Assembly (NCBI GenBank): GCA_963920705.1
Contig: OY987231.1
Location: 22,111,024-22,175,023 of the forward strand
Reading direction: 5' to 3'
Length of the DNA stretch: 64,000 nt
Source of the DNA: Odiellus spinosus
Lineage: Eukaryota; Arthropoda; Arachnida; Opiliones; Phalangiidae
Part shown: piece by piece, positions 17,701 to 55,883 of the stretch
Layout: every line of letters starts with the position of its first letter
Position numbering within the stretch: position 1 is the stretch's first letter
Translations under genes and position numbers: made by a program
Notes under the pieces: model-generated
What the model was told of the DNA's origin: nothing
Seen by the model: the letters and a program-made list of their open reading frames with translations, nothing else
Database searches by the model: none

Positions 17701-19846
17701 AACCATCAAACTATCCCTTTAAAATATCTTTAACTTAAATCATTAAACCATTCCTTTAAAAATACTTTTAACTTAAACTATACCTTTAAAAATACTCTTA
17801 ACTTAAACTATACCTTTAGAAATACTTTTGACGTATTATATTCCTCTAAAGGATAATTCGAAAATTACTAATAACAAAAATGTCCTCTTACAACAGGAAA
17901 ATCGTTTCAAATGGGCCGACAATTGGCCAGTTTATTACACTAACTGGGCGGATAAAGAGCCAAAATCGGTTGAAATGGGTTTCGATAGATGCGTATATTT
18001 GGACACAGCCTCTAAGCAATGGAAGGCCGAAAAATGCAGTCAAACGAGAAATTTCATATGCGAAACATCAAAAGGTTATCTCTATTCTATATTGAAGATG
18101 GGCTAATTACTAACACAGAAAATCTTAATCTTTTCAGACGAACCGCCCGTAATTCCTAAGGTTTCTAACATGGTATGTCCATCTCACGCTAATGGCTACG
18201 AATGGTTAGACCCTGAAGGTTCCCAGTATTGTTACTACATCGAAAATGGGTATCAATCTTACAAGAGAAAGAGTTGGGGTGACGCTTCCATGGTTTGTTC
18301 GAGTCTCAGTAAGTTAAGATCCACGATAAGACAATACCAATTTCAGGGCTAAGTTAAAAACACTCAAAGTCTACTGATTCTTGTAAGAATTATTCCTTTC
18401 CTAAATCCGTAACGTATATGTTTCGGTTAGGTCAAAATTATGGAGTTCTCACGATAAGAGAGATTTATCTTGAATGTTTTTTGATATAGTTGAACATTGA
18501 CTAATTACTCGTATTTAAATATTCCAAAGACGGCGAAATCGCGAGCTTTCATTCTCAACACGAGATCGACGTTTTGTCCCCGCTGTTAAAACAATCAATT
18601 GGAAAAATATGGATTGGTTTAGTAAAGAAACATCATGGTAAATGAAATATATACTACTTGAAACTAGTTAAGATAATTAACCATTTTAACTAATAAAATA
18701 AAGGTGGCTACGAATGGTCCGATAAAACGCCGCTAGATTTCTTAGCGTGGGATGAAAATCAACCCGGTGAACCTAATAGTTATTACCCTCCATGTGGTTC
18801 TCTTAACCCAAGTAATGGTAAATGGCAAACGGTGTCTTGTAATCAACCACAAGGTTTCGTTTGCAGGCTAATGAAAGGCGAGTAATTATGAACAGAATAA
18901 TTGATGGTTAGTGTAGTTAGAATACTAACAAAGGTTTGTATATATAGTGCAAAGTAACGCTACCACTCCATCCCTAGTCACTACCAAAATTCCGAGTGAG
19001 TAATCTAATAACTGTAATTACACGTAATTTAAGGCTACCTTGATAACTTCTTTTACAAATTTCAAAGGTCCAGCTACTGATCCCAAGCCTCCAGTAACAG
19101 GTATTATGAATATCCTTAGTTTTGAAGCTTAAAACATATAAATTATAATTAAAATTAATTAAATAGCTATGAATATTTAATAAATTGAATTATAACATAA
19201 TTAAAGTTATCTTTAAAATTAAATTTTAGATCCCAGTAAAAAGAGTTCAAATAGTCCTCCAGTAACTGGTTAGTTAATTATTAATAATTAAAACCAATAA
19301 TACATAATTATAATATGTATATATATTTTTTTTAAATGTTTTATCTCATTACGTTAAAATTAGATCCAAGTAAAAGTAGCAAGACATCTCCGGCGACTGG
19401 TTAGTAATTATTATGACGTTAAATATAATTAGTAAAATCCTAATTATAACTAATTTTAATTATAGAACCAAATACCACCCCAACAGTTACAGTAACAGGT
19501 GTGTTTTTATTTAACTTAAAATAAATTTTATTTAAACTAAATATTTTAAAAATTATTAGGGACAAGTAAAACGAATGCTACTGAAAGCAGTATTAGAGAC
19601 ACAAGTACGTAGATTAATTATAAAACTGTAATTGTAATAATAAAACTAATTAACTTTACAGGTAACGCTGGAATGGGAGGCGGTGCAGTCGCGGCTATTG
19701 TAATATTCGTAATATTGGCGGTTATTACGAGTTTAGGTATTGGTTACTACTACTTAAAACGCCGCGCGATGTTGCCGTCCATGCCTAACTTGCCCAGTAT
19801 GTCCTGGTCCTCAAACAAAGCAAGCCGTTTCGAGAATAGTCCTTGA
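11785..19846 (+). CDS. Gene C: eight-CTLD type I membrane lectin-like receptor with mucin-like stalk
   Basis: Twenty-nine exons: 11785-11830, 11899-12092, 12233-12410, 13092-13223, 13286-13414, 13477-13622, 13875-13983, 14049-14299, 14367-14541, 14703-14975, 15034-15201, 15266-15298, 15519-15709, 15856-16171, 16231-16353, 16645-16796, 17124-17223, 17297-17559, 17897-18074, 18138-18308, 18530-18637, 18704-18877, 18948-18995, 19068-19100, 19230-19268, 19364-19399, 19466-19498, 19560-19604, 19662-19846; 1342 residues. Exon 1 is a signal peptide. Eight CTLDs follow, each showing WIGL, a W-x-D/N-W region and paired Cys. CTLD2 has GEPSN and WND; CTLD4 has GEPK; the others lack a full EPN/WND calcium-sugar set. 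Six tiny exons encode a Ser/Thr/Pro stalk, then a GGGAVAAIVIFVIL membrane helix and a tail of about 32 residues. The intron after 18877 has a GC donor; without splicing, TAA follows at 18883. The layout recalls the mannose-receptor family. Surface recognition is inferred. Confidence 0.85.
17690..17850. repeat. imperfect AT-rich tandem repeat in gene C intron
   Basis: The words CCTTTAAAAATACTTTTAACTTAAACTATA recur about four times with small changes, within the intron before exon 17897. No coding content. Confidence 0.6.
18948..19604 (+). other. micro-exon stalk region of gene C
   Basis: Six consecutive exons of 48, 33, 39, 36, 33 and 45 bases, all phase 1 at both borders, encode Ser/Thr/Pro/Lys-rich words such as PSKKSSNSPPVT and PSKSSKTSPAT between CTLD8 and the membrane helix. 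The units look duplicated from one another. They are likely O-glycosylated spacer, and each could be skipped without a frame change. Confidence 0.7.
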
Positions 19847-19923: not shown

Positions 19924-20271
19924 AATAAAAATGTACATTTAAAAGTAATAAAACTATTGTTTCATACATCGTTCTATATCTAAGCATAATAATAGAAATT
20001 TGAATTGAAATCCAAATCAGCAATGTATCCAGGTTTACATATCTGAATTTTCTAACTAAATTACGGATAATTAGACATCTGGAAAACAAATGTCAAGGTC
20101 CCTTTAAGGTCACATATTCAAAAAAATAGTTTAACACAATAAGAGGCTCTTTCACGTGTACATGGAATAATAATATTAAAATTAATCAAATCCCGATTAT
20201 CGAAGATGGCAAAAGTTAAAATATCACATTAAAAATACTGATTTTCAAATCAACTTTTGCAAATTACTGAC

Positions 20272-20391
20272 AGATAAGAAAAAAAAATTGGGAGGATTTC
20301 TTATCAATGAATATAATAGCATCCAACTAATTTCGTAAGAAGGAACCATCTTTGAAGATAAAATAGTGATAAAAATCAAAGGGGGCGTATA
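20272..20391 (+). promoter_or_regulatory. conserved GATA-pair promoter block of gene D
   Basis: AGATAAG (20272) and an opposed TTATC (20301), then the box ACTAATTTCGTAAGAAGGAA continuing to CCATCTT (20325-20351), then AAAGGGGGCGTAT (20379). The same order occurs before genes E and F. The block lies about 65-185 bases before the start codon, so it may straddle the transcription start. Confidence 0.6.
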
Positions 20392-20455
20392 GAAAATATC
20401 CAATATAGAGTACAGAATATCGTAATATTATCTAAATGAATTGTTAAGAAGAGAG

Positions 20456-23400
20456 ATGAAGATGCGAGCATCATCATCGTTGCTCGTTTTTTTCTTAATT
20501 TTACCTTACGGTAAAGGACTTAATTCTAAAAATTAATTTATAAAAAGTTTTTAATAATTGAAAATAACTCGTAAATTTAATTCTAATCATAATTTAAACC
20601 ATCTTAAAGTTTCAAATTAACTTTAAAACTATATTTAACTTATTAAAACTGTTGTCTACGTTATATTTTGTTACCAGGAAGGCATTAATAATTTATTATA
20701 ATTGCAGTAATTGGAGAACTAATTCCTTGCACAAACGACAAGGATGGCTGGTTTGCTAACGACGGTTACTGTTATAATTTCATCGAAGAGCAGAAAAATC
20801 CGCGTTCCTGGGATCAAGCGGAAAATTACTGCGTTATTCAATTAAAATCGCATTTGATTTCAATCGCGTCCAAAGAAGAAAATGATTTCATTCAAAGTGT
20901 GGTGAGTATTGAACAGTTTGTACCGAAAGCTTCTCTTTATCCCTAGGGAGATTAGGCTAAACTCGCGTGGTCTTGTAGGATTTAAGGAACCATCCAAATG
21001 AAGAGTTCTTTAGCTGTTGGTTAATCTTGATACCAGCCCAAAACAAATAATTTAATATTTTGACAAATTATCCGCGTGTGAACGGCTTTTTAATAGATTG
21101 AGAATGTAAACTAAATTCCTTTAGATGGATGCCGCTGAACTTATCAAATACCCAACGGCATGGATCGGTTTAAAAGCCAAGGGGATAGGAGCGTCTTACA
21201 AATGGTCCGACGGACTAGTACTGGATTATGGCAACTGGAACGGTAACGGAAGTACGCCAATACCGGACACCAGCACCTCGTGCGTCGTTATGATAACTGG
21301 CGGTAAGCGCTTAATACTCAGTCAAATTGAGTTTATATTTATCTAATGCCAAAAATTCTCCAGGTAAATGGGGCGCCATCAACTGTAACACGGCTATAAG
21401 AGGTTTCATTTGTAAGAAGGACAACGCCACAATCCCACCCGTGACGGAACCACCCATCAAACAAGGGGAATGCTTACCGGATTGGTATAAATTCAGTAAG
21501 TTATAGCCCATCTTCTGTACAAGGTAGCGGAAACTATCGTTTCAAAATTAACAATGTTCGAAAATTTCTAGATGGAAGATGCTACAGGCCATTCAGCAAT
21601 AAGGTCGAAGACGGAGGTGGTCTAGAATACGACGATGCTCTTTATAGTTGTCAAAAATTGAAATCAAGCTTAGCCTCCATACATTCCCAAGATGAACAAG
21701 GTATGAAATCTTTCTATATAGCTTTACACGAAGAAGAAAACGAAAAATGAAATTATTTTCGACAGATTTCTTGACGGCAAGAATGGGAGAATTGGGAGTT
21801 AGTGCTTGGATCGGCCTCAAGAGTGCGCGAGACGGTTGGATGTACAGACATCAATGGATTGATAATACAACTCTAAATTTCGTTAACTGGGCGCCCGGAG
21901 AACCGAGTAACCCTTACGGCGAACCTTGCGTCGAAATGTACGAGCTACCCAACGTTGGTGGCAAATGGAATGACGTCCCGTGCGATAAGAAATTGGGTTA
22001 CATCTGCGCCATGGATGTTGGTATGTTCAACTCAGACAATTAATACCACGTAAAGTCATGAGTGTATTTTATATTGTGGGGAAACAGCGGATTAAGTGCG
22101 TGGAAGGCCAACTTATGCACTTGTGATACTAACTGACTATTTATAAATTGCACTACAGATCCGGCCTTATCACCGGTAGCCAAGAGGAACACGTGCCTCA
22201 ATTCTTACTACGGTTACCAACCATATCGTAAAGGATGTTTTCTAGCTAGCACCGTGAAGAGCGACTTCAACACTGCTCAGGCGGCGTGTAAGCGGCAAGG
22301 TGGAAATTTGGCTTCCATCAAAGACACCTTCGATCAAGCGTTCCTCAACTCTTTATTGGTCAACGTCAGCGGAAACGTTTGGATCGGCTTATCGGATACT
22401 GACGAAAAGAAACAAGGTTTGTTCAGTTGGACCGACGGATGGCCAGTTTATTACACCAAATGGGCCCAGGATCAACCCCAAGCCGAGACTCTATACAAAA
22501 GATGCGTCTCTCTCACCGAAAACAACACCTGGACGGTCACGGACTGTACCGAGAAGTTGGCGTACTTGTGCAAACTAACTGACGCGACTCGTAAGACTGA
22601 TTACGTTGAAAACGTATTTTATAGCTCTATTTATCTAGATTTACTAAATTATTTAAACAGTAAAACCACCAAATATCACGACCATCATCGGGAAGTGTCC
22701 TGTATCGAGCGAGGCCAACTGGAAAGACGTTGGGAACAACTACTGTTACCACATCGAATACCAAAGCACAAAATCGTGGGATGAAGCTTCTAGAACTTGC
22801 GGTCTTTTCGGTAAACCCATAGCGTATAACAATGACATTTTAAATTGGTCTTAATCGAACTTTTTATATACAGGTAATGGAGCCAAAATGGCTAGTTTCC
22901 ATAGCGCGCATGAGCTGGATGTTATGAGGCCCCTGATTGTCGATACGGACAGCACGCACTTGTGGATCGGATTATTGCAGGACGAAGACGGTAAGTTCTA
23001 AATTAATCCTAATATTACGACACTGAATTAAACCGGAAGTCATTTATTCGTAGGCGGATACGCCTGGCAAGATGGTACACCGGCTGATTATATTCCTTGG
23101 GACAATGGCGAACCGACCAAAAGCAGAGACGAGGCGTGCGTCGAGCTTCTAGGTCATAAAATGATGTACAACAATCTTGAATGCGATGATGAACGTGGTT
23201 ACATTTGCGAAGTACCAAAAAGTAGGCGTAGAGCAACTTCGTGGCTCATTTAAATAAAATGATTCTAATCCAGCTTCAATTAATACCAAAGCCTCAAAAA
23301 TCGGACAACAAATTTAAGTCAATTATTCATTTTTAAACTTCTCTAATCTGTCTAATCCAGAAATTAATATCCCTCTGACACGGGCAAAATTTTACAACAA

Positions 23401-23857
23401 ACTTTAACGTTAATTTTAACGAATATTAGACTGTTGAGCTGTAAACGAAACTCGTATTTTTCCATAGTTCCTGAAAAAGATTGCGAACCGGGAAACAAAT
23501 GTCTAGGCAAATTCACCTTATGCGATGCAAACTCTAAATGTCAATGCCAATCCGACAAATACCGGCCGACCGTCAACTCTAGTCTTGGAAAAAAAGACTT
23601 AGTCTGCGAACCAGGTATAAGACAACTACTGACGGACGGATTTGGAAAACTTGATTGAAAATAGTGCACATTTTTTCTTTTTAGTTCCGGACTGCGTATC
23701 TGGACAGAAATGTAAAGGGAACTTCACTATCTGCGATGCGGACGCTAAATGTCAGTGCGAATCTGATAAATATCGGCCCACCAAGGACAGTCTTCTAGGA
23801 AGCAAGGATTTGATTTGCGAACCCGGTAAGGAAACTCTTCAAATATCTTATCTATGA
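20456..23857 (+). CDS. Gene D: four-CTLD protein ending in two 6-Cys modules (3' end unresolved)
   Basis: Exons: 20456-20510, 20708-20901, 21125-21302, 21364-21495, 21572-21700, 21766-22020, 22159-22590, 22661-22810, 22874-22990, 23054-23221, 23468-23614, 23685-23825. The first ten match gene E exons 1-10 in order, and in length except exons 1 (55 against 49 bases) and 7 (432 against 426). Exon and intron DNA are very similar. A second Met at 20462 equals the gene E start. CTLD1-4 are intact (WIGL; CTLD2 with GEPSN...WND; CTLD4 with GEPT and YNN). Instead of CTLD5, two exons encode 6-Cys modules (CEPGNKCLGKFTLC and CVSGQKCKGNFTIC) that resemble gene B modules. After 23825 a good donor (GTAAGG) has no downstream exon that I can find; reading through it reaches TGA at 23855-23857 (709 residues). 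So it is either a secreted short form ending in a retained intron or a truncated, decaying gene. No anchor and no clear poly-A signal. The end coordinate is uncertain. Confidence 0.7.
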
Positions 23858-24198
23858 GGCTTTACATTAAGAATCAATCCGATTCTGTTATTACCATTAT
23901 GTAAACTCGTCGTAGTAGTAGTATTAGTACTCTTAAAACTTAACTATGAGTAAATTAAATTCAAAAATGACGTATCTAGGATAGAACTGATGGTTTAGTT
24001 AAGTCTTTTTGACTATTTAAAGCTAATATAATATTTAAGATAATTTAATTAATGGCCCCATAAAAAACTCACTATATACTCTAACCCAATGTCACCTGGG
24101 AATTAAAGGGTTAGTGTATCGAGCATTTATATTTTAATTATTACACTACTCTTAAGATATATCAAACCTCCCTGATTCAGAATTTATTAATATTTTAT

Positions 24199-24490
24199 CA
24201 AGAAGGATCAGATAAGGAGAGGAAAAGTGGGGCTGCGTTGAGTTAGAGAGAGAAGAGCCGACCTCCCACTCGGGTGGAAAGGGGGGATAGGAAATTCTCG
24301 AGGTAAACTGTTGTCACGTGGTCGCTAGCTAGCGCGTCTCATAAAGGATTCGTTTTACCCACGTGACAACAATTTACCACGAAGCATCTCTACCCCCGTC
24401 TGTCCCCCGTTCTCCCAGAGTGGGAGTTTAGGCCGACGCAGTAGGAGGCGCGCCGTTCCCACTTTTCCTCTCCTTATCTGATCCTTCTTG
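24199..24490. mobile_element. 292-base foldback element with 7-base target duplication
   Basis: The ends CAAGAAGGATCAGATAAGGA and its complement are perfect for about 32 bases, and the whole element is a long imperfect palindrome with centre GTCACGTGG / CCACGTGAC. It is flanked by ATTTTAT on both sides (24192-24198 and 24491-24497). A second copy in opposite orientation is at 41384-41673. No open frame, so non-autonomous. The class is not assigned; 7-base duplications are unusual among common families. Confidence 0.85.
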
Positions 24491-24497
24491 ATTTTAT

Positions 24498-25881
24498 CTA
24501 TATTGTAAATTTTTAAACCTAGTCAATATTTACGAAATCGTATCTACGTAACAGAATAGTTTTTCAAATTGAATACCGCGGACCCTGGGATCCCTTAAAA
24601 CCTATGAAGGGCGCCGAATCGGTTATTATTTCCTAGGGAGGAGGCTTAGGCGCGAAAATCAAATTTATGCTGTCCTCAAATCCCAAAGATTTCTACCCTT
24701 CTCAGCTTCCTAATGGCATCGCAATTACGATGGCGCAATTGTGTTTAAACTCGTATTAGGCCTAACTCTCATTGTCGAAATCAATCACGTGGTGTGGTGG
24801 TAGTAATCTCATAATGACGTCATTAGAATTCTTAAGCCGAATGTGAAAATATCTTTTATTTTCCTGATTACAAAATAATTAAAAATGTTTCTATAACAGC
24901 TATTTTAAAAACCAAATTAAGCCTTGATCTGAAGATACAATAAACTAAAGTAACTATAGAGATGAGTCAGCAAAAATCCTTTTGTTTTTGATGACTCAAT
25001 TCGATCCAACTTTCATTCACACGATATACCTATAGTTGTCCTCTCACGTATTGATTGAGCAACGTTCAGTTAAAAAGTTGTAATTTCTGAACAGGTGGTA
25101 AGGGAAGAGAAGTATCCTAAGGCCAGGGTCTCTGCGCGGTTTTAGGTGGCAGTGAAAACGTTTATAGTGTTATAAAACGATGAGCTATTCCTGGGAAATA
25201 TTGGAACCGACGTAAGGCCTACGAATCCTATAAGGTTATAGTCCCTTTAAAGGGAGAATGAAGAGGAATCTTTTTTTTTTTTTAATTGGTGCTACTTTTA
25301 AAAAATAAAAAAATCGGGAAGATTAAGATTTTGGCATTCAACTACAAGGAAAATCTCCGACTAACCAAAATACTTCCCATGCACCTCTGACTTCATAAAA
25401 TATCCGCGACAGGCGCTGTTCTACGCACGATTGTGCGCGTGTAAATAATAAATAACTACCCCAGATTTAGCGCGGATGTTACTAAGCCAAGTCTTTTCAT
25501 TGGTCGGAGATTCTCATTAATTTAATACCAAATCAGAAAGTTTTCGATTTTGTGTAAAATTCTGAGGCACTTTATTTACCTTTCAACCCTCCCTTTAAAC
25601 TTTAAGAACCTCGTTTAACCCCATTGATCGTTAATTCACGTGTACAAATAGAAAGATAAAATAAATTAATCAATCAAATTGTATTATTTGCACTAAAGAA
25701 TACGGATTACGAATAATATTAATTAATAAAATCTAAGAGTAATGTTATCTCCGGGTTATCAAATTAAGATAAATGAAGATTGCAAAAGTTACAATATCGC
25801 GAGAAAGATATGGAATCGCCTTTTAATTTCATAAACGACCAATATAAAGAGAATTAAATTAAAACAATGAAAATACCTGTC
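24498..25881. other. intergenic DNA between genes D and E
   Basis: No CTLD or 6-Cys exon could be found here, although gene D lacks its expected 3' exons. The stretch 25244-25600 is bounded by TTTAAAGGGAGAATG and CCTCCCTTTAAA and may be a decayed member of the TTAA-flanked foldback family. 23858-24191 is likewise AT-rich without a gene. Confidence 0.5.
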
Positions 25882-26013
25882 AGATAAGAAAAATAGGGGA
25901 GGATCTCTTATCTAAAAGTATAATAATATACGACTAATTTCGTAAGAAGGAGCCATCTTGCCTTATTACGAATAAAATAACAATCAAAATCAAATGGGGG
26001 CGTATTGTCAAAG
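25882..26013 (+). promoter_or_regulatory. conserved GATA-pair promoter block of gene E
   Basis: AGATAAG (25882), opposed CTTATCT (25907), the box ACTAATTTCGTAAGAAGGAG continuing to CCATCTTGCCTT, then ATGGGGGCGTATTGTCAAA (25994). Same order and similar spacing as in D and F, 58-189 bases before the start codon. Confidence 0.6.
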
Positions 26014-26070
26014 ACAAAATTAGTTAGAATATACGATCAAAATTAGTTTTAAACCCAAGAGGAGGCCAAG

Positions 26071-29000
26071 ATGAGAGCATCATCATCGTTGCTCGCTTTT
26101 CTTTTAATTTTACCTTGCGGTAAACTTTAACTTAATTTAAATATTAAACTATCCTAATACTAAAATTTAATTTAGGCAACCGTTTAATAATTAAATACTC
26201 ATGAATTTAAACTATCTCACGGTTTTAAAATTAACTTTGAAACTATTTCTAACTTAACAAAACCGTTGTTTAATTATATTTAATTAGCAAGATGACCTTA
26301 GTTAATAATTACTTATTAAATTTTGCAGTAATTGCCGAACTAATTCCTTGCACGAACGGCAAGGATGGCTGGTTTGGTAACGACGGTTATTGCTATAATT
26401 TCATCGAAGACGCGAGATATCCGCGTACCTGGCAGCAAGCGGAAACTTATTGCGTTAGTCAATTAAAATCGCATTTGCTTTCAATCGCGTCCAAAGAAGA
26501 AAATGATTTCATTCAAAGTGTGGTGAGTATTCAACAGTTGTTACCATTAGCTTCCCTTTATCCATACTAGGCTAAACTCGCGTGGTCTTGTAGGATTTAA
26601 GGAACCATCCAAATGCAGAGTTCTTTAGCTATTGGTTAATCTTGACACCAGCCCAAAATAAATAATTTAATGTTTTGACAAATTATCCGCGTGTGAACGA
26701 CTTTTTTTAATAGATTGAGAATGTAAACTAAATTCCTTTAGATGGATGCCGGTGAACTTATCAAATACCCAACGGCATGGGTCGGTTTAAAAGCCACGGG
26801 TATAGGAGCGTCTTACAAATGGTCCGACGGACTAGTACTGGATTACGGCAACTGGAACGGTAACGGAAGTACGCCAATACCGGACACCAGCACCTCGTGC
26901 GTCGTTGTGATAACTGGCGGTAGGCGCTTAATACTCAGTCAAATTGAGTTTATATTTATCTAATGCCAAAAATTCTCCAGGTAAATGGGGCGCCATCAAC
27001 TGTAACACGGCTATAAGAGGTTTCATTTGTAAGAAGGACAACGCCACAATCCCACCCGTGACGGAACCACCCATCAAACAAGGGGAATGCTTACCGGATT
27101 GGTATAAATTCAGTAAGTTATAGCCCATCTTTTGTACAAGGGAGCGGAAACTATCGCTTAAAAATTAACAATGTTCGAAAATTTCTAGATGGAAGATGCT
27201 ACAGGCCATTCAGCAATAAGGTGGAAGACGGAGGTGGTCTAGATTATGATGGAGCTCTTAAAAGTTGTCAAAAATTCAAAGCAAACTTAGCCTCCATACA
27301 TTCCGAAGATGAACAAGGTACGTGTGAAATCTTTTTAAATAGTTTTACACGAAGAAGCCAATAAATAACGGAAATATTTACGACAGATTTCTTAACGGCA
27401 AGAATGGGAGAATTGGGAGTTAGCGCTTGGATCGGCCTCAAGACTGCGCGAAACGGTTGGATGTACAGACATCAATGGATTGATAATACAACTCTAAATT
27501 TCGTTAACTGGGCGCCGGGAGAACCGAGTAACCCTTACGGCGAACCTTGCGTCGAAATGTACGAGCTACCCAACGTTGGTGGCAAATGGAATGACGTCCC
27601 GTGCGATAAGAAATTGGGTTACATCTGTGCCATGGATGTTGGTATGTTCAACTCAGACAATTAATACCACATGAAGTCATAAGTGTATTTTATATTGCGG
27701 GAAATGAAGTGACTGTGTGAAAGCTCAATTTATGTACTTCTGGTACCAACTGCTTCTTCATAAATTACATTATAGATCCGACCTTACCAGCGGTACCCAA
27801 GAAGAATACGTGCAGCTATTATAACTACCAAGCATATCGTAAAGGATGTTTTCTAGCTGGCACCGTGAAGAGCGACTTCAAATCTGCTCAGGCGGCGTGT
27901 AAGCGCCAAGGTGGAAATTTGGCTTCCATCAACGATACCTTCGACCAAGCTTTCATCAACTCTCTCGTGGTCAACATCACCGGAAACGTTTGGATCGGCT
28001 TATCGGATACTGACGAAAAGAAACAAGGTTTGTTTAGTTGGACCGACGGATGGCCAGTTTATTACACCAAATGGGCTCAGGATCAACCCCAAGCCGAGAC
28101 TCTATACAACAGATGCGTCTCTCTCACCGAAAACAACACCTGGGCGGTCACGAACTGTACCGAGAAGTTGGCGTACTTGTGCAAAATCACTGATCGGACT
28201 TGTAAGACTGATTACGAAACGTATTTCATAGCACTATTAACTAAATTAACAAATACATTTAAACAGTAAAACCACCAAATATCACGACCATCGTCGGGAC
28301 CTGTCCCGTATCGAGCAAGGCCAATTGGAAAGACGTTGGGAACAACTACTGTTACCACGTCGAATACCGAAACACAAAAACGTGGGATGAATCTTCGAGA
28401 ACTTGCGGTCTTTTTGGTAAACCATAATATATGATAATGAGATTTCAAACTAATCCTAAGCGTATTTTTAATACAAAGGTAATGGATCCAAAATGGCTAG
28501 TTTCCATAGCGCGCACGAGCTGGAACTCATGAGACCTCTGATTATCGATACGGACAACACGCAGCTGTGGATCGGATTATTGCAGGACGAAGACGGTAAA
28601 TTCTAAATTAATCCCGATATTACGTAACGGAATTAAACCGGAAGTCATTGAAATTGTAGGCGGATACGCCTGGCAAGATGGTACACCGGCTGATTATATT
28701 CCTTGGGACAATGGGGAACCGACCAAAAGCAAATACGAGGCGTGCGTCGAGCTTCTAGGTCATAAAATGAAGTATAACAATCTTGGATGCAATCAAGCTC
28801 GTGGATATATATGCGAAGTACCCAAAAGTAAGCCTAAAGCTATACTGAATCTCAAACCGATCTTAACTTTTCGATATTTTTTTTAGTTCCTGGACCAACG
28901 ACTCCCGCACCACCAATAAGTAAGTACAGTTAATATTTAAATAATTTACTAAGGAATTAGACTAAGCACGATATGCCGCCTTTATCTTGAAGCAATACCT

Positions 29001-32000
29001 CCACGAACCGACTGCGGACCAGAATTCAAGGACTGGAAATTCTACAACGATTCTTGTTACTATATTCCCAAAATTTCCAGAGATACCAAAGACTGGCACG
29101 AAGCCAGCGAATATTGCAATGTCCTAGGATCGCATTTAGTGTCTATACATACCTCGGAAGAAGATCTTTTCGTATCTAGCATGGTAATTTTGCCTAATTG
29201 TTCGAATTGCGCCTCAAAAATCCATTTTGTCCTAACGCGGCTATTCCACTCCCCGAGTGTCTCTCGTATAATAAACTAAATCCACCTCGCGTCTTGTAGA
29301 TACAAAATAGTTATTACTTCAACGCTTTTTGGATTGGACTGAGCGCGACTGGCGGCGAAAGATTCGAATGGGTGGACGAAACCATACTAGATTTCGACGC
29401 TCGAAATGGAGATTCAAACAACGCTATCGCAACTGATAAAAAATGCGTTCACATGTTTCGATACAACAGCGGAAGACGTAAGTTGTAAACCATGGAGGAA
29501 ATTCAATTATTACGATCCTCTCATATTGGTTTGGTGATTCTTAAAGACCATGACTATTTTTAAACAGGATATTGGTCCTTTGACGATTGCGATGTGAAAA
29601 AAGGCTTCGTATGCAAGAGAGAATATGGAATTACGCCGAGTACAATTACTCCTAAACCAACAACCTCAGCGCCCGGGTGGTGCGAGGATGGTTGGACCAG
29701 AATCGGAAATAAATGCGCCAAAATAATGGGAACAGATACTCCGCTCAATTTTACCGAAGCTTTGAAAGCGTGTAAGGCCATTGGTGAAAAAGGAAGTCTT
29801 TTGTCCATTCTTAACCAGCAGGAACAAGGTACTTGTCCGAATTAAAAGAGATTTCTCAAAGTACGCTTTAAAACTTCTCTAAGATTCTCGTTATTTTTAT
29901 ATAGACATTGCCACTACGCTATTATTGGATCAACCCGATGAAATTTTAATTGGATTGCGAAAAATTGGATATGGCACGTATAAATGGCAGGATGGATCTA
30001 GGTTAAAATTCGTGAACTGGGCAGCTGGTGAACCAACTTCCCTGAGCTACGAAGTTAGTAGATAAAAATTATTTAAGGCCCTTATAACTGAATTGACGTA
30101 TCTAATTTAATTTTAAATATTTCTTGTAAAGAATACTTGCGCAAGAATACAGAGCACTAAGGCCCAAGCGGGAAAATGGAGGGCAGATACGGGTAGTTGC
30201 GCCAAAAATCGACCTTATTTTTGTCAAGTTTCACCAAGTAAGATCATCATCGGTGGTTTTTTCGTACACAATTATTTCTATCGTGCAATGTAAGTACCTT
30301 TAAAACTGAATGTATTGTTTGGGATTCAGGTATCAGCGCCGTTACCTCACCCTTGCCACCCAGCGATTGCAAAGAAGGTTTTGATAAGTTTAGCAAATCT
30401 TGTTTTAAATTATTCGCGGGGGAAGAGAGGAAAAATTGGAAAGAAGCCGAAAACGTTTGCCAAAGAAGCGGAGGACATTTAGCGTCAATTAACAGTGGTT
30501 TGGAACAGAGCTTCATCAATACGCGATTATATTCAGTCAACGATAGCGCCGATTCTTTCTGGATAGGGTTAAGCGAAGAGGTACGATAATAATGTTTAAA
30601 AAGAAGCCCACATTCAAATGATATCTAACTTTTCTAAATCATATTAAAAATTCTATTAACAGAAACGTGTTTTTACGTGGGTCGATAAGTGGCCCATTTA
30701 CTACACAAACTGGGGCGAATTTCAACCTGAAATAAATAACGCTACCCAGAGATGCGCCTTCTTGGACGTAGCAACAAAGCAATGGAACGCTACTAGCTGC
30801 GATGATGAGAGAAATTTCATCTGCGAAGTTACAAACGGTAAGGCTGAAAAACTGTCCGCTTATTTAATCTCGTCTATGATCTCTCGGTGCCAAATACCAT
30901 AACTGATAAATGGACAAGTAGTTTAAGTCTTCTACCTGTTCTTTGGCGTTAATAGATCAAAAGACAACATTAACTAACCAATAAATTGAACCTTCATTGA
31001 ACCTTTTATTTGGAGATGGTTAAAATCTGAACCCCACTTTAACTATTTCACTTACAGCGTATGGAAGCAACCTTCCAATAGATTAAGGTCAAAATGTCAT
31101 GGTCCTAAACTAGTTTCCAAAAATCCTTTTTTTTTCAGAAAAACCGCCAGTCGTTCCCGTAATTAAAAATAAAGTGTGCCCTCCTCGCGCCAACAATGAA
31201 CTAACTGACAAAAAATGGGTTGATCCTGGTACAAGTAGCGACTATTGTTATTACGTAGAATCTGGTAGTACTTATATGACGACGAAGACTTGGAGCGACG
31301 CTCATTTATTTTGCCTTCAAAATAGTAAGTTAATAAAACGCGAAAATATCCGACGGATATTTAAAAACATTAATTTATTCGCAAGGCGCTGAGCTAGTTA
31401 GTTTTCATAATCAACACGAAATTGACATCTTGGGTCCGAAACTAAAAGACGCTACAAAGCCATTATGGATCGGATTGATACTTAAAATTCAAGGTAACTT
31501 AAAATTGATAATTAAATTTGAAGAATTTTAGATTACAGTTAGTTTCCTTTTTGGTATTTTAGGAGAATACGGCTGGTACGATAATTCGCCTTTGGATTTT
31601 GAAGTTTGGGCAAAAGATGAACCTCTTAAAAACGCTTATAACCCTTGCGTAGCTTTGATACCTGGTACGGGGCAATGGGCAGTAAATCGATGCAACCTTG
31701 TTCTTGGATTCATATGCCGTATCCAAAAAGGTAAAATTATTCATTTTACAGGCTAAAGGTCAAAGAGTACTAACGATAATTGCAATTATAGTACAGGGTA
31801 ACGAAACAAATACAGAGGATGATCCTGCAGCCTCGGGTAAACTATTAACTTAATCATATAAAAAATAAATTAAAAAATGGTACAAAGTTGAAATTTTTGT
31901 GATCCAACTTTTAACACAGAAACGTTTCATGGGGGAAAGTTAGAGTGACGTCACAATGGGGCGCTTTTTAAAGGGATACCGATGCGAATATATTAAAGGG

Positions 32001-32456
32001 ATAATGAAGCGTATATTTTAATATTTTGAATTCGTATTATTTTTATTTAAAAGAGAGATTATCAAAGGGATAATAAAGCGAATATTTGATTTGGGTGCGG
32101 GCATTTTTTGTATGCAAAACTGAATTTTTAATTAACCTAATTATACGGTTATAAAAAAGCAAGTGACGTAAAAATCTGCAGATATTTGACGTAAAATTTC
32201 AACTGTTATTGATTTTACGTTATTTAATTCTAATACTACTTTATAAACCCATCATAATATAGGATCTAAAACCGGGTTAAGTGGCGGTGGAGTCGCTGGT
32301 CTTACCATATTCATCATTATAGCCTTAATGGGAATCATGGGAGGAGCCTATTTTTACATGAAACGACGAGAGAACGCTCCTCAGTCCAGTGGTAATAGTA
32401 ACAAAAAAGGAGTTAGTTTCGCCAATGATCTTTACGAACCTGACTTAAAGACCTAA
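26071..32456 (+). CDS. Gene E: eight-CTLD type I membrane lectin-like receptor
   Basis: Twenty-three exons: 26071-26119, 26329-26522, 26742-26919, 26981-27112, 27189-27317, 27387-27641, 27776-28201, 28267-28416, 28479-28595, 28660-28827, 28887-28919, 28993-29183, 29300-29477, 29568-29828, 29905-30053, 30132-30237, 30330-30580, 30663-30837, 31139-31324, 31386-31493, 31563-31730, 31792-31836, 32263-32456; 1280 residues. Exon 1 is a signal peptide (MRASSSLLAFLLILPC). Eight CTLDs with WIGL cores follow, in the same order as gene C. CTLD2 keeps GEPSN and WND, while CTLD6 has GEPT and WRAD, so few sites look fit for canonical sugar binding. A short acidic stalk exon (31792) precedes a GGG-start membrane helix, a KRR stop-transfer motif and a tail of about 30 residues. 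Compared with gene C it lacks the introns at C 13622, 14299 and 16171, has extra ones after 28416 and 29477, and has one stalk exon instead of six. It is the complete paralog from which D and F look like halves. Confidence 0.88.
31960..32095. repeat. AAAGGGATAATGAAGCG-type repeated words in gene E intron
   Basis: AAAGGGATACCGATGCGAATAT, AAAGGGATAATGAAGCGTAT and AAAGGGATAATAAAGCGAATAT occur within 120 bases in the last intron of gene E. They resemble TTAAAGGGA ends of the TTAA-flanked elements and are probably decayed copies. Confidence 0.45.
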
Positions 32457-32557
32457 GATAAACTTTTTTAAAACAAACCAAAATGTCATGTACATATTTC
32501 ATACCTTACTTATACTTGTTACTAAATATTAAATGTTATAAAAATGTATATTGAATG

Positions 32558-32563
32558 AATAAA
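32558..32563 (+). terminator. polyadenylation signal of gene E
   Basis: AATAAA about 100 bases after the gene E stop, followed directly by the inserted foldback element at 32602. Confidence 0.5.
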
Positions 32564-32601
32564 AATATATTTAAGAAAATTAGTATGGTTAATAGTATTA
32601 A

Positions 32602-33037
32602 AGGGAGAATGGAACCTAATTACAAGTGATTTTTTTATCGATTCCTTATCGTTTAAATAGGCCTAATACACCGATAAAAAGTTTACAATACAAATATTAA
32701 ACTAGAAATAAATTTAAAACTTACCCTTAAAATAGGCTTAGCGGGATTGATGGAGATCCTGACTCGCGTCCGTGTAAGGTCTAGCGACCAATGAGCAAAG
32801 GCTAGTCGTTCACGCGAGATCTCCACGAGACTTACGCCGCACGCGATTGGTCGCTAGACCTTACACGCGAGGAAATCAGGAGCTCCATGAATCCCACTAA
32901 GCCGATTTTCAGGGTAAGTTTTAAATTTATTTCTAGTTTAATATTTGTTTGTAAATTTTGTAAATAGTGGATTAGGCCTATTTAAACAATTAGGAATCGA
33001 TAAAAAAAATCACTTGTTGTTAGGTTGCATTCTCCCT
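32602..33037. mobile_element. TTAA-flanked foldback element, copy 2
   Basis: Near-identical to 3353-3785, flanked by TTAA at 32598-32601 and 33038-33041. It sits between genes E and F, 14 bases from the next element. Confidence 0.85.
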
Positions 33038-33051
33038 TTAATTCAATAATT

Positions 33052-33402
33052 CCAAAAGTATATTTTATTTTATTGTAAACAACGCCCCGTACTATCAGTA
33101 TACTTTCGGGTAAATGTACCGACAGATTCTGATTCGCTGACACTCTAGCGGCCGCGGTCACTGTGAAATAGGAACCGCCACTCTTTGAAGAAACTCCGGA
33201 GTTGGGAGGGTGGACAATATAAATATAGCCAAGCGCGGCCCGCCTCAATTCCGTTCCTCTTACCCGACTCAAAATATCAAGAGTACAAATCACTTGAGGC
33301 AAACAAGGGTGATGTTTTTCTGGCTAGTTTTAAGTGATGGGCTATGACGTAATACTATCAGGGCGTTGTTTACTTTTATGGAATAATGTGATGGACTTTT
33401 GG
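33052..33402 (+). mobile_element. foldback-ended element with GTAAACAACGCCC subterminal repeats
   Basis: It starts CCAAAAGT and ends ACTTTTGG. The subterminal GTAAACAACGCCC (33075) and GGGCGTTGTTTAC (33361) are perfect inverted copies, each next to CTATCAG. The GC-richer interior matches 6462-6735 in opposite orientation. An open frame on the minus strand inside it is not shared with conserved coding and is rejected. Confidence 0.7.
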
Positions 33403-33637
33403 TTATATTTATATATTTGAAAGTTAGGCTCTGTAAATTGTAATAACAAATTCGATGATAAATCTAATTTATTTAAGCTAAAATGTGGGAGGACCGCTGA
33501 CCGTTTGATATAAACCATTTTGGGATGGTTGAACTGTAAAATCTCGGGGTCAACTGTAGAGAGAACAATACAGACATAATATTGAAACGTTTTGAAAGGG
33601 TTTAATGTAAAGTGGATTCCTATCTACAATCGTTCTA

Positions 33638-33755
33638 AGATAAGAAAACGAAAAATGGATTTGTTATCTAATATTATAATTAGAACCAACTAATTTCGTT
33701 AGAAGAAACCATCTTGCCTTTCCAATCAAATACAATAGGGGGCGTATTGTCAAAA
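33638..33755 (+). promoter_or_regulatory. conserved GATA-pair promoter block of gene F
   Basis: AGATAAG (33638), opposed TTATC (33664), the box ACTAATTTCGTTAGAAGAAA then CCATCTTGCCTT (33689-33720), then AGGGGGCGTATTGTCAAAAA (33737). The start codon is about 130 bases further on. Box order is the same as in D and E despite divergence between them. Confidence 0.6.
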
Positions 33756-33887
33756 ACAATCCTGATGCTGTTTTCAAATATAGAGATAAAGTTTTCATTG
33801 TCAAAAACAGGAAGTAATTTTAGGAAATTCAACGATAATTATGTATAACACTAAACAAATTAATTTTGAACACGAAAGAAGACCAAG

Positions 33888-36800
33888 ATGCGACCATCGT
33901 CATGGCTGCTAGCTTTTCTCTTCATTTTACCTCGAGGTAACATCAACTTAATTTTAATTTTAACCCAACGGTTTTCATATAAGTGAAAGATTACTAATTC
34001 TATTCCATACGTTATTAGCGTTTTATTTTAACTTAATATTTAATAAATTAACTGTAATTAACTGTAACTTTTAACTCATTAAACCCGTTGTCAGCGGATC
34101 TAAGTAGAAATAAAATCTAATTTTGTATGATGTCTTTAATTAATAAATTTTACTCGTTAATTTTTGCAGCAATTGGAGAACAAATTCCTTGCACTAAGGA
34201 TGGTATTTGCAAAAAGGTCGAGCCACCAATCAAACAAGGTGAGTCTTAACCTAATTAGTACCAATATAATAATACAAATCTGTAAATTCTTCAGATAGTG
34301 AGTCGACCACTTTAGATCCATTATTAAGTACAAGTAAGATATTAAGTAGCTAATATTGAAATAACTTTGTCAATATTACAAGGAATGTCTTTATCTTTAA
34401 GCTCAACCTCCATTACCTGACTGCGGAAACGAATTCAAAAATTGGAGTCGCTACAATGATTATTGTTATTACATTCCCACACGTGCCAGTGAAACCTTGG
34501 ATTGGCACTACGCCAACGAATATTGCAATGCCCACGGAGCGCATCTAGCATCCATACATTCCGAGGAAGAAGACCTCTTCATAGCCGGGATGGTAGTTGT
34601 GACTATTTACCACCAAGTTCTCCGAGTGCAATAAATTGTTTACCCCTCACCACTTTCAGGTAGTCAAACGGAATACCTACAACTTTTTTTGGATTGGACT
34701 GAGCGCCACTGGTGGTGATAAATTCGAATGGGTAGACGAAACAATTTACGATTATGACGTTCTGAAAAACGATTCCCACAAAGCAATTTCAACTGATAAC
34801 AAATGCGTTCATATTTACGTGTACCCCAACAGCGGAAGACGTAAGTTTAAGTATAGTTTTAAGAAGAACCCACTCTCTATCTATATAAAAAGACTCTCCT
34901 GAATATTCAAATCTCGTATGGAAAATAATCTTTAAAATTCTTGATTACAACAGGAGCTTGGTTTTTTGGTCAATGCGACGCGAAAAAAGGCTACCTATGC
35001 AAGAGACGCTTCGGAATCGCGCCGAGTACAATTACTCCTAAACCAACAACGTACGCGCCAGGATTGTGTCAGGATGGTTGGACCAGAATCGGCAACAAAT
35101 GCGTTAAACTCGAGGGAACGGACAACCCGCTAAATTATACCGAAGCATCGAACGCGTGTAAGAACATTGGTGAAAATGGAAACCTCGTGTCCATTCAAAA
35201 CCAGCAGGAACAAGGTACTTGGATTATAACGTTTTAATTAAGAAGACGCCTAAGTATCACATTTTTATATAGACACTATCACTACGCTATTGTTGGATCA
35301 AATCGGTGAAATTTACATTGGGTTGCGAAAAAATGGATATTACAAGTTTAAATGGATCGATGGATCTAGGTTTAAATATCAAAACTGGGGAGCTGGCGAA
35401 CCATCTAACGCGGGTAATGAGGTTAGTGTTATCAAAAAAGGTACACCTTAAAGTGGGACTCTAAACAAGGCAATTGAGAAATAAATTAACTTATTTGTCA
35501 TTTATTTTTTCTTATTTTACCCTTTTCTTTAAAGAATTCTTGCGCAAAAATACAGAGCATGAAAGCCCAAGCGGGAAAATGGAGAACAGACTCGAACAGT
35601 TGCGTCAAAAAGCTACCTTATATTTGCCAAGTTTCACCAAGTAAGATCATTGTAACAAAAGCTTCCGTGTAGACATTTAGAGGCTTATTGAACTGTTTAT
35701 ATCGTATCCAGGTATCAGCGCCGTTACGACACCCTTACCACCCAGCGATTGCAAAGAAGGTTTCGAGAAGTTTAGCCAATCTTGTTTCAAATTATTCGCG
35801 GGGAAAGAGAAGAAAAGTTGGAGAGAAGCCGAAAAAGTTTGCCAAAGAAGCGGGGGACATTTAGCGATAATCAACAGTGGTTTGGAACAGAGTTTCATCA
35901 ACACGCGATTCTATTCACTCAACGACAGGGCCGATTCTTTCTGGATAGGATTAAGCGAAGAGGTATACAATAACATTCGAGTAGAAACTCACATTGGAGT
36001 CGAGAATTTTTAATTATTTTCGAAATTTTTTTATTAAAAGAGACGTGTTTTCACGTGGATTGATAAGTGGCCGATTTACTACACAAACTGGGGCGAATTT
36101 CAACCCGAAATAAGTAAAGCTACCCAGAGATGCGCCTTCTTGGACGTAGCAACCAGGCAATGGAACGCTACTAGCTGCGATGATGAGAGGAATTTCATCT
36201 GCGAAGTTACAAACGGTAAGGCCTTGCTTCCCCATCACTACGACTGAAAATTGTCCACTTATTTAATCTCGTCTACGATCTCTCGATGCCAAATACCATA
36301 ACTGATAAATGGACAAATAGTTTAAGTCTTCTACCTGTTCTTTGGCGTTAACATTAACTAACCAATAAATTGAACCTTCATTGAACCTTTTATTTGGAGA
36401 TGGTTAAAATCTGAACCCCACTTTAACTATTTCACTTACAGCGTATGGAAGCAACCTTCCAATAGATTAAGGTCAAAATGTCATGGTCCTAAACTAGTTT
36501 CCAAAAATCCTTTTTTTTCAGAAAAACCGCCAGTCGTTCCCGTAATTAAAAACAAAGCGTGCCCTCCCCGCGACCAAAATGACCTAACTGACAAAAAATG
36601 GGTTGATCCTGGTACAAGTAGCGACTATTGTTATTACGTAGAGAGTGGTGAGACTGATACCACAATGGAGAATTGGAGCAACGCTAGTTTCGTATGCCTT
36701 CAAAATGGTACGCTATTTGAAACGAGTAACACCGCGAAACATTATTTAAATAAATATTTTATTTGAAAGGCGCTAAGTTAACTAGTTTCCATAGTCAACA

Positions 36801-38009
36801 CGAAATTGACGTCTTGGGTCCAAAAATAAAAGACGCGAAGAAGTCACTATGGATTGGTTTGACGCTGAAAGCTCACGGTAACTTAAAATTCAGGATTATA
36901 TTCGAAAAACCAGAAGCCGATGAAACCCTCCTTTGAAGTCTACTACTCTAATGTTCGATATAGCGCCCCTCTCTGTATGGGTAAAATTCACAATTTTCCG
37001 AAATCGGAGGGGTCCTACTTCATACCCCCTGTCTACGGAAAATTCGAAATTCTCTCTCTCCACAAACGACGACGTTTTTTTGACGAACTCCGAGGCTGCT
37101 AGAGATATTCGCTCGACGAACTCCCGCTCCGAAAATATCTACCGTTAGGAGGCGTACGAATCGCGCTTTTTGAAACTAACCCATACAGAGAGGGGTAGAC
37201 AAGACCAGGGAGTAATAGACTTCAAAGGAGGGTTTCATCGGCTTCTGGAAAAACTTAATGGGGCCAGGAGTTAAACTGTTTTTAGGGCAGAGATTAGCGT
37301 ATAAAATCTATAAAACAATAATTTTGATTATAACTGGGTTTAGGTGAATACGGTTGGAGCGACAATTCACCCATGGATTTCGAAGTTTGGGCGAAAGATG
37401 AACCTATTAAAGACGCTTACAACCCTTGCGTGGCTTTGATGCCCAGTACGGGACAATGGGAAGTCAAAACGTGTAACAACGTACTTGGATTCGTATGTCG
37501 AGTTCAGAAAGGTATATCAATTTCAGAGGTTAAAGTTCAACGGTGAAAGTTACACCTAAAGCTAATTAAAACTATATATAGTACGGAGTAACGAAACGAG
37601 TACGGATGACCCTTCACCCTCGGGTAATTATTAACTTCATCAAATTCTAATTGTGTAAAGTTGAAATTTGCGATGTATAAACCTAATTTCTACCGATAAA
37701 ATATTTTTTGGGATTAGTAAAGCCGAACTAAATACAGTCTTAATTATATTTAAAATTTAGAAGAGCGTTTCAATATATTTAAATTAATTTACGTCATTTT
37801 TCAACTTTTACCGATATAAAGTTATTCGATTGTAATATTTCTCTTTATAAACCAATTATATTATAGGGTCTAAATCCGGTTTAAGTGGAGGTGGTATCGC
37901 TGGCCTTGTAATATTCCTCATCATAGCATTAATTGGAATCATAGGAGGCGTTTATTTTTACATGAAAAGACGAGGGATCGTCCCTCAGTCACGCGGTAAA
38001 CTTTATTAA
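33888..38009 (+). CDS. Gene F: four-CTLD (types 5-8) type I membrane protein, N-half deleted
   Basis: Fifteen exons: 33888-33936, 34170-34238, 34295-34333, 34402-34592, 34660-34840, 34954-35214, 35273-35421, 35535-35640, 35712-35962, 36041-36215, 36522-36707, 36770-36877, 37344-37511, 37582-37623, 37867-38009; 705 residues. The signal peptide (MRPSSWLLAFLFILP) parallels gene E. Exon 2 encodes IGEQIPCTKDGICKKVEPPI: its first half equals the start of the E exon 2 and its second half equals the middle of the E exon 4, so CTLD1-4 were lost by an internal deletion that kept the frame. From exon 4 on, each exon matches E exons 12-23 closely, mostly to the base. CTLD6 has GEPSN but WRTD instead of WND. 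A GGG-start membrane helix and KRR follow, then a short tail ending QSRGKLY. The intron after 36877 carries a foldback element. Likely surface expressed; ligand unknown. Confidence 0.85.
36910..37248. mobile_element. 339-base foldback element, intact copy (gene F intron)
   Basis: Terminal inverted repeats of about 33 bases beginning CCAGAAGCCGATGAAACCCT are perfect at both ends. The second pair of words CCTCTCTGTATGGGT and ACCCATACAGAGAGG is also inverted. It lies in the intron between exons 36770 and 37344. The related copy is at 39357-39675 in gene G. Confidence 0.85.
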
Positions 38010-41700: not shown

Positions 41701-43089
41701 TAGGCCTTGTCATTTCCAAATGTAGGGTCAAGTAATTGTGTGGTAAAGGTAAACCCGTCCCCCATCCCCTCTGACGACGAACCTGTAGGAAATCATTCGT
41801 TATCGGGCTGCAAATAAAATTGTACGTTTGGTTTTCGCTAAGCCTTTGACTATTAATTTCTACAAAAGATAATTTAAACGGTTCTTTGGCCAAGTTTCGT
41901 TCCGAGCACGAATTATTGCAATTACGACCTTATCTAAGACGTTACACTGACCGCAGTTTTGTGATTGGAATTCACGAAGAACATTACGGTATTTAATAGT
42001 AACTAAAATAACAAGTTATTATATAATTATTTTTAAAATTCGGGCAGGTCAATTTGAATTCGTTGACGAAGAAGAACTCGCTAGTTACTTGCCCTGGCAT
42101 AAAGGAGAACCCAATAACAAAGAAAACGAAAAATGCGTCGAATTGTTGACTCATTTAATGCTATACAATAATTTTGCGTGCGATCAGCCAAAGGACTACA
42201 TTTGCCAGATAGATAAAGGTAAGGAATTAATTCCAAACTGAAATAAATTTATCTTCAATGGGAAAAACTGATAAGGATGATACGCAAAGGGTCAGGAAAG
42301 CCAATAGTCAGTTAAACCAGAGGTATATAATAACCCCCTTCGGGGGGAAGTATGAAAGTCCCTATACTACCAATGCTAAAAATCACGAACAACAAGAGCC
42401 CGCTGCTGACTATCTAGGCCACTAGCTCGCGCTGGACTTCTCAATGTCGCTACTCTAGTAAATGGTCTTTGTATAAACAAGACGGCTCGATTTGTGTTTA
42501 GAACTTCCTGTCTCGGGAGTCAGGCTGTCTGCTAAAATGGAGTCGAAGGTTGACTTCAGCTCGCGAGTTCCGGAAGTGCGCGTAGGGAAAATTTAGTGAG
42601 GTTCAAAATGGTGTAACTATTTTTTGGGAGTAAAGCGGTGTGTCGATCCGCCGCGATTTACGCCGGGCACTCGTTGTTCGTCGATTTTGCCTACCTTTCA
42701 TACTTCCCCCCGAAGGGGGTTATTATATACTTCTGGTTAAACCAAGGGATCAAAACATCGTCTGCTTATCAAGACGATGTTTTGGTCGCGGATAGGATAG
42801 TAATCGTAATAACTGTATATATCATATTGAAATAAAACCTATTTTTGCAGTAATTGATCCAAATGTGTCCAAACACCCGTACGCCAGTGGTTTATCAGGA
42901 GGCGGTGTGGCGGCTGTCGTCGTAACAATGATGATAGTGTCGCTAGTACTATCCGGAATTGCGGTATTCTTTTACCGGAAAAAAATATTGGACGACAAAA
43001 TGAAGGCCGGAATTTTTCGATTTCAAAACGAAAATAACGAAGGAACCGCGACAAATCACACCACCGATCACAATTCTTCTCATATTTAA
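38743..43089 (+). CDS. Gene G: three-CTLD type I membrane lectin with EPN motifs
   Basis: Eleven exons: 38743-38797, 38930-39028, 39214-39342, 39749-39903, 39969-40077, 40464-40717, 40770-40953, 41018-41161, 41869-41988, 42048-42218, 42851-43089; 552 residues. A signal peptide (IVKLNLLFVYVGL) is followed by an exon that replaces CTLD1. Three CTLDs correspond by sequence and exon borders to types 2, 3 and 4 of genes C-E. The first shows GEPN (end of exon 39749) and QWND (exon 39969), the canonical EPN/WND set for calcium-dependent mannose-type binding. The third shows GEPNN but YNN in place of WND. A GGGVAAVVV membrane helix, RKK and a tail of about 40 residues ending in NHTTDHNSSHI follow. 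It keeps the intron inside CTLD2 that D and E lack. It is the most diverged member of the cluster. Introns carry three foldback elements plus an ACGTTCACACT-type repeat. Confidence 0.85.
39357..39675. mobile_element. foldback element, 3'-truncated copy (gene G intron)
   Basis: Starts CCAGAAGCCAATGAAACCCT and follows 36910-37248 closely, but the right terminal repeat stops at AATAGACTTCGAAG. It lies in the intron between exons 39214 and 39749 of gene G. Confidence 0.8.
40146..40431. repeat. ACGTTCAAACTAG / CTAGTGTGACAACGT foldback element (gene G intron)
   Basis: The left AAAGTTACGTTCAAACTAG and right CTAGTGTGACAACGTAGCTT are imperfect inverted ends of the 7315-7498 family. It fills most of the intron between exons 39969 and 40464. 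An open frame inside it has no CTLD features. Confidence 0.6.
41384..41673. mobile_element. 290-base foldback element with 7-base target duplication (gene G intron)
   Basis: Second copy of 24199-24490, in the opposite orientation. Flanked by ATCAGGG at 41377-41383 and 41674-41680. It lies inside the intron between exons 41018 and 41869. Confidence 0.88.
42312..42737. mobile_element. foldback element with hairpin-bearing ends (gene G intron)
   Basis: The ends read TTAAACCAGAGGTATATAAT... and its near complement for about 45 bases. Each end contains its own small hairpin, CCCCCTTCGGGGGG. The GC-richer interior has no credible frame. It sits in the last intron of gene G (42219-42850). Confidence 0.8.
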
Positions 43090-55879: not shown

Positions 55880-55883
55880 TTAA

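Follow-up and report, generated by a model that had tools for sequence, protein, structure and literature searches.

Receptors of the mannose receptor family (MRC1, PLA2R, DEC-205 and Endo180/MRC2) carry eight or ten C-type lectin-like domains (CTLDs) in a row, one membrane pass and a short tail, and N-terminal cysteine-rich and FNII domains belong to the family definition given in the available part of PMC7948739. The arrangement of eight contiguous CTLDs with one membrane segment is likewise encoded by gene E in a 64,000-nucleotide stretch (the window) of the genome of Odiellus spinosus (Opiliones, Phalangiidae; contig OY987231.1, positions 22,111,024 to 22,175,023 of the forward strand), while the neighbouring genes D and F encode four CTLDs each. 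The best solved-structure matches are members of the mannose receptor family, and E is the only gene of the cluster with the mannose-receptor tail motif FxNxxY. On the other hand, no cysteine-rich or FNII domain is found in the E model, Pfam at an E-value of 0.01 returning only Lectin_C, UL45 and Xlink (and, below the cut-off, Podoplanin in F), and CTLD1 directly follows the signal exon. A domain-wise descent from vertebrate mannose receptors was considered but is not supported, as the four domain-type profiles all score best at the second CTLD of DEC-205, the IgY receptor and PLA2R (12 of 12, one of them a near tie). As predicted from its sequence, E is a protein that works like a member of the mannose receptor family, but it is not classed there, as neither cysteine-rich nor FNII domains were recognised in it and there is no one-to-one domain match.

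The presence of half genes distinguishes this cluster from the mannose receptor family. Gene conversion between a receptor gene and its partial counterpart is known from the Brassica S-locus glycoprotein and the receptor kinase SRK. The glycoprotein gene is linked and highly similar to the extracellular part of SRK (available text of PMC10316313), a pair of plant S-domain and kinase which resembles the present cluster in arrangement only. Among animals, four of five mannose-receptor paralogues in Fugu have fewer than eight CTLDs (PMC514892); the accessible portion of that source calls them fragments, with no complementary blocks or 4+4 structure described. The Manila clam mannose receptors RpMR1-13, an invertebrate family obtained by a Lectin_C search, range from 1 to 14 CTLDs per protein, and no half-gene series appears in the accessible sections of PMC12321717.

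The explanation that we consider probable for D, E and F joins several steps, which rest on sequence with differing strength. The eight-CTLD form, an N-type block (CTLD1-4) followed by a C-type block (CTLD5-8), would have arisen by an old doubling before the separation of E from its full-length relative, gene C. F would go back to a complete copy, equipped with a promoter, that lost CTLD1-4 and retains a scar in which exons 2 and 4 are fused; D, probably later than F, would derive from the E 5' half broken in intron 10, having gained two array-type cysteine-rich exons. Gene conversion would afterwards have made some tracts of D and E, and of E and F, alike again, and the three products would have acquired the separate roles proposed below.

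Gene models and the two blocks of E

The exon models of D, E and F, all on the forward strand, were reconstructed manually, with splice sites and reading frames checked; 47 of 47 modelled introns are GT-AG and all frames are open. E comprises 23 exons (26071-32456, 1280 residues): the signal-peptide exon 1 (26071-26119), exons 2-10 with the N-type block (26329-28827), the 33-base exon 11 as a linker joining the two blocks (28887-28919), exons 12-21 with the C-type block (28993-31730), both blocks being assigned by exon model, domain scores and tree, and exons 22-23 with stalk, membrane segment and a tail containing SFANDLYEP (31792-32456). E exons 1-10 recur in D, followed there by two cysteine-rich exons, and F has counterparts of E exon 1 and exons 12-23. 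The first-pass annotation of this DNA, made from the sequence alone, had claimed equal exon lengths of D and E apart from exons 1 and 7, and of F and E apart from one 181/178 pair, stalk and tail, with which the rebuilt models agree. D exon 1 (20462-20510, signal peptide) has 49 bases as in E if the second ATG at 20462 is used and 55 from the upstream in-frame ATG at 20456, exon 7 has 432 bases against 426, and exons 2-10 (20708-23221) encode CTLD1-4; protein identity to E over D exons 1-10 is 88.5%. F exons 4-15 equal E exons 12-23 in length save 181/178 (E exon 13), 42/45 (stalk) and 143/194 (membrane segment and tail). F exon 1 (33888-33936) encodes the signal peptide, exons 4-13 (34402-37511) the C-type block, and exons 14-15 (37582-38009) stalk, membrane segment and a short tail without FxNxxY; the hydrophobic segment in exon 15 supports the earlier suggestion that F is membrane-bound. 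That annotation had missed the cysteine-rich exons of D, the chimeric exon 2 of F and the relatives C and G in the window.

Pfam Lectin_C (PF00059) recognises four stretches in D, eight in E and four in F above its curated cut-off, identifying them as CTLDs. The long form of the domain has six cysteines, and all six are common to E and D or F in each of the eight domains compared. On the DNA level, D 20258-23234 and E 25868-28840 are 87% identical over 3 kb including introns, and E 29317-31525 and F 34677-36909 78% over about 2.3 kb, both far above chance. The promoter block proposed as common to the three genes is real (D 20272-20390, E 25882-26005, F 33638-33747), and its tokens AGATAAGA and GGGGCGT also occur upstream of gene C.

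E itself looks like an old doubling of a four-CTLD block in which CTLD1 corresponds to 5, 2 to 6, 3 to 7 and 4 to 8. The series of exon lengths in CTLD1-4 has its parallel in CTLD5-8 (194/191, 178/178, 132+129/261, 255/149+106, 426/251+175, 150/186, 117/108 and 168/168), CTLD3 of gene C being 251+175 as is CTLD7 of E. In E, the top-scoring partner of each of the eight domains is four positions away (mean 78 bits; 44-52 at other shifts), and in gene C this is so for six of eight (mean 77; 34-64), the exceptions being CTLD1 and CTLD5. A tree of 24 domains pairs 3+7 (97/99), 4+8 (100/98) and 1+5 (85/92), and in a larger tree of 32 domains, which includes eight from two remote genes, these pairs reach 100/99, 100/99 and 97/97. 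Strings of CTLD2-4 and CTLD6-8 (eight strings of six genes, those on contigs C5 and C11 being left out) part into N-type and C-type at 100/100, an equal clustering arising in 16 and 22 of 500 label shuffles, and D and F match the two blocks of E respectively. As phase-1 introns bound the signal exon, blocks, linker and anchor exon, loss or gain of a block leaves the frame intact, and the receptor would be modular at the level of four-CTLD blocks. Among the literature matches listed, no paper describes a 4+4 block origin; a check of PMC10140915 for six terms gave 'tandem' alone, once, in its reference list. The CTLD2 and CTLD3 exons of 255 and 426/432 bases are single in D and E (27387-28201) and divided as 146+109 and 251+175 in gene C; as CTLD6 and CTLD7 of E are themselves split like C, the loss of these introns probably precedes the separation of D from E.

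Proposed origins of F and D and probable gene conversion

F has its own promoter and its own signal exon, and its exon 2 (34170-34238, 69 bases) carries the putative deletion scar. The first part of this exon resembles exon 2 of E (score 34) and D (45), and its last part, taken with the beginning of the following intron, resembles exon 4 in either gene (35). The scores against E were reached by none of 1000 dinucleotide shuffles each, and when the window is divided into 1273 tiles, the highest scores (45/34 and 35) fall on these same exons of the two genes, the next being 22 and 27; taken by itself, the end of the exon is borderline (28 against 27 for both the best shuffle and an unrelated tile). 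With pieces of both exons 2 and 4 in the scar, F was very likely once full length. Exon 3 (34295-34333) is a short linker placed where E exon 11 sits, with weak sequence likeness. A search for relics of CTLD1-4 between E and F (32480-33880) gave a best protein match at E-value 0.42 only, and F 34180-34400 had a nine-residue match at E-value 0.015.

In D, exon 11 (23468-23614, phase 1-1) and exon 12 (23685-23825) each encode a cysteine-rich module. The pair, which we take to be EB-like, has no Pfam match at an E-value of 0.01. A genome search gave 38 matches, of which D itself accounts for two, C7:22100704-22107493 for 32 (best 61% identical), contig C8 for three and contig C1 for one, so that the relatives of these exons are an array of units 27 kb upstream, outside the window. 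One DNA match (71% over 149 bases) coincides with exon 11 within three bases, and another (63%, 23514-23830) spans both exons and the intervening intron, which suggests that a two-exon piece may have been copied into D. Tandem cysteine-rich modules are also seen at 8082-10380; the upstream array has a spacing of about 202 bases, with many units of equal match score.

Past exon 12, the unspliced D frame meets a stop at 23855-23857 and continues with an open hydrophobic stretch of 31 residues in the same frame (23858-23950), the sole candidate for a membrane segment, as no E-like anchor exon was recognised for D. Its use would need a 33-base intron, the smallest of the 47 modelled introns having 56 bases. 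Control stretches of 47,804 strand-bases held one such segment at KD (Kyte-Doolittle hydropathy) 2.85 and 17 at KD 2.0, and for this rarity the stretch is noted rather than dismissed; a GTA repeat may have produced it by chance, or it may be what is left of an anchor. The earlier description of D as soluble-looking holds insofar as an E-like anchor exon was not recognised, is qualified by the hydrophobic stretch, and is retained here as likely: the D product would be soluble or secreted. A search for CTLD5-8 relics behind D (23860-25850) gave a best protein match at E-value 0.11 only; DNA matches below E-value 0.01 were 25247-25300 against E intron 22 (54 bases, 8e-6, not coding), a 34-base inverted match (0.002) and the F scar itself.

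The eight-CTLD form predates D and F, as the full-length gene C branches outside D/E and E/F where resolved. Synonymous distances (dS) are 0.139 for D/E and 0.458 for E/F, and in the 5' block (463 mostly noncoding columns) D and E differ by 27%, E and F by 31% and D and F by 35%, D/E being the closest pair in 1845 of 2000 bootstraps, E/F in 155 and D/F in none. The F copy is probably older than D. As conversion lowers exon distances, the order of events among D, E and F is likely but not certain. Such conversion between D and E and between E and F is what near-identical tracts point to: D 20953-22049 is 95.7% identical to E over 1097 columns, with 208 identical columns at 21307-21514, and E 30684-31259 is 96.1% identical to F over 560 columns, with 235 identical at 30919-31169, mostly within intron 18. 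In 100-column windows, D/E identity is 95-100% across 20979 to 21529, and E/F identity 96-100% at starts 30857-31072 against 52-95% elsewhere. That E/F intron 18 is a mobile element was rejected, since of 27 matches only E and F are full length and 25 are limited to query positions 122-212.

Motifs, proposed roles and relatives

Calcium and sugar binding in CTLDs is marked by an EPN/QPD-like triplet together with WND. An EPx triplet with WND is present in four of 30 domains examined, namely CTLD2 of C, D and E (EPS) and of G (EPN), in none of 13 CTLD5-8 domains (one partial) and not in CTLD2 of the stand-alone gene N described below. The only domain of E with the canonical motif is kept in D and absent from F; Endo180 likewise uses CTLD2 (available text of PMC9033714). 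Of ten FxNxxY matches on the forward strand of the window, one is in the E tail (32418), two are in CTLD1 of D and E and seven outside modelled exons, with none in the tails of F, C or G. By the distribution of both motifs, E has the look of an endocytic protein, F seems to be anchored but to lack FxNxxY, and D seems to lack the anchor of E. E would be an endocytic receptor. For D, a secreted lectin that works through CTLD2, the one domain it has with EPS+WND, is the most likely role, and for F that of a membrane protein with neither classical sugar binding nor FxNxxY; the motifs agree with a division in which D is the sugar-binding and F the non-sugar block. A more far-reaching proposal, to which we give a small chance, makes one system of the three, in which secreted sugar block D, membrane block F and endocytic E are kept matched by conversion and D-coated targets are passed on to either F or E. 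In its wider form, this proposal has the eight-CTLD receptor composed of joined N-type and C-type four-CTLD genes and dismantled several times.

A genome search with E, in which 36 of 95 candidates were scored so that locus counts are lower bounds, found the cluster and loci at C5:22.74 Mb, C7:20.61 Mb and C11:23.34 Mb. At least eight loci result: C and E are full length; D, G, N and the C11 locus have the N-type block or part of it; F and K have the C-type block. Predicted half genes thus recur at other places in the genome. Gene C (11785-19846, forward strand) is an eight-CTLD relative with exons modelled to 18877 and a membrane match at 19670-19819; the intron behind its exon 18704-18877 seems to start with GC, not GT. 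Gene G (38743-42984, forward strand) has a signal exon, CTLD2-4 and a membrane match, its exons being modelled to 40717. N (C7:20.61 Mb) encodes CTLD1-4 and a membrane segment; CTLD5-8 had no match within 4.5 kb behind it and one weak opposite-strand match (E-value 0.007) in the following 5 kb. Its domains are placed with types 1/5, 2 (80/62), 3 (100/99) and 4 (96/85). K (C5:22.74 Mb) encodes CTLD5-8, without a CTLD match at E-value 0.05 within 7.9 kb upstream; its domains are placed with types 5 (98/96) and 6 (98/94), types 7 and 8 not being resolved inside their clades. The C11:23.34 Mb locus has CTLD2-4, typed by best matches only and partly ambiguous, and a membrane segment.

Repeats are also present in the window. 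A three-copy element (3344-3799, 32594-33053 and 55453-55883) is about 92% alike between copies, with inverted mutual matches of about 81% (foldback type); an inverted pair behind D (24197-24490) and in a G intron (41384-41675) is 97% identical, and a repeat in F intron 12 (36908-37227) and the second G intron (39355-39674) 95%. Minisatellites lie at 44402-44694 (36 bases), 51838-52076 (42) and 60828-61748 (41; 22.5 copies). Elsewhere, contig C17 holds a number of long COX1 copies that contain TAG stops and are likely to be mitochondrial DNA in the nuclear genome. The mitochondrial frames, as judged by eye, agree with invertebrate code 5 and with the gene order ND2-COX1-COX2-ATP6.

Weighing the explanations

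A single split of one E copy into D and F, by duplication with complementary loss, would explain why D and F divide E at one and the same place, the linker at exons 10-11, and why the 5' block distances of D/E (0.27) and E/F (0.31) are not far apart. The promoter, signal exon and exon 2/4 scar of F, however, point to an origin from a full-length copy, the synonymous distances differ threefold and E sits between D and F; a one-time fission was rejected on the scar and the unequal distances, and a single split is extremely improbable. The earlier picture of a complete receptor beside an N-half and a C-half accordingly stands as anatomy, but not as complementary halves of one split, the two being separate events. 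It is rather unlikely that D and F are functionless partial copies in decay: although both changed faster than E (residue changes polarised by C, 21 in D against 12 in E and 32 in F against 22 in E), the 3' end of D is unclear and the F tail is short, there is no frame break over 697 (D) and 705 (F) codons, the modelled splice sites are all GT-AG, the cysteines are preserved in eight of eight domains compared as is the promoter block, and ratios of nonsynonymous to synonymous change of 0.42 (D/E) and 0.35 (E/F) speak for use of the genes.

Two further alternatives concern D. Its phase-1 last exon could be spliced to E or F exons within a larger transcription unit, since the donor of exon 12 (gtaagg) is good and shares its phase with the acceptors of E exons 2 and 23, and scans for hydrophobic segments, cysteine modules and CTLDs recognised no terminal exon behind it; with the promoter block and signal exon of E itself about 2 kb past D exon 12, this is very unlikely. 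A secreted decoy competing with E for ligands would agree with the 88.5% identity of CTLD1-4 and with parts of CTLD1-2 that look conversion-matched to E, but an opsonin or a plain secreted lectin fits equally, and the extra cysteine-rich modules of D would seem to serve a distinct role; a decoy function is thus doubtful.

Several observations count against the joint explanation of block doubling, separate origins of F and D, conversion and divided roles. In neither domain tree are CTLD2 and CTLD6 resolved as a pair, and CTLD3 is nested inside the CTLD7 rows with weak support (82/76 on 24 domains, 84/70 on 32), departing from the prediction of a clean doubling. N and G branch outside C/E/D (87/95, G being a long branch) and may be ancestral halves, and N, without WND in CTLD2, shows that the N-block need not be a sugar block in every gene. 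The intron part of the F scar alone does not match E, 889 of 1000 shuffles being as good. The D-E-F order rests on conversion-disturbed dS and 463 mostly noncoding columns, and D may be older than its exons suggest, as the D/E difference in the 5' block exceeds exon dS. The identical runs of 208 and 235 columns were reached by none of 1000 permutations each, in a test that takes all columns as alike while exons are in fact more conserved. Finally, 23858-23950 could be an anchor for D.

If the joint explanation holds, the cluster would present a large lectin receptor which evolves by entire four-domain blocks, with both halves kept as intact-looking genes beside the whole. By CTLD counts alone, D, F and E would be classed as unrelated types. 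Together they would offer a natural dissection of a receptor into its sugar-binding block, its non-binding block and the contribution of their join.

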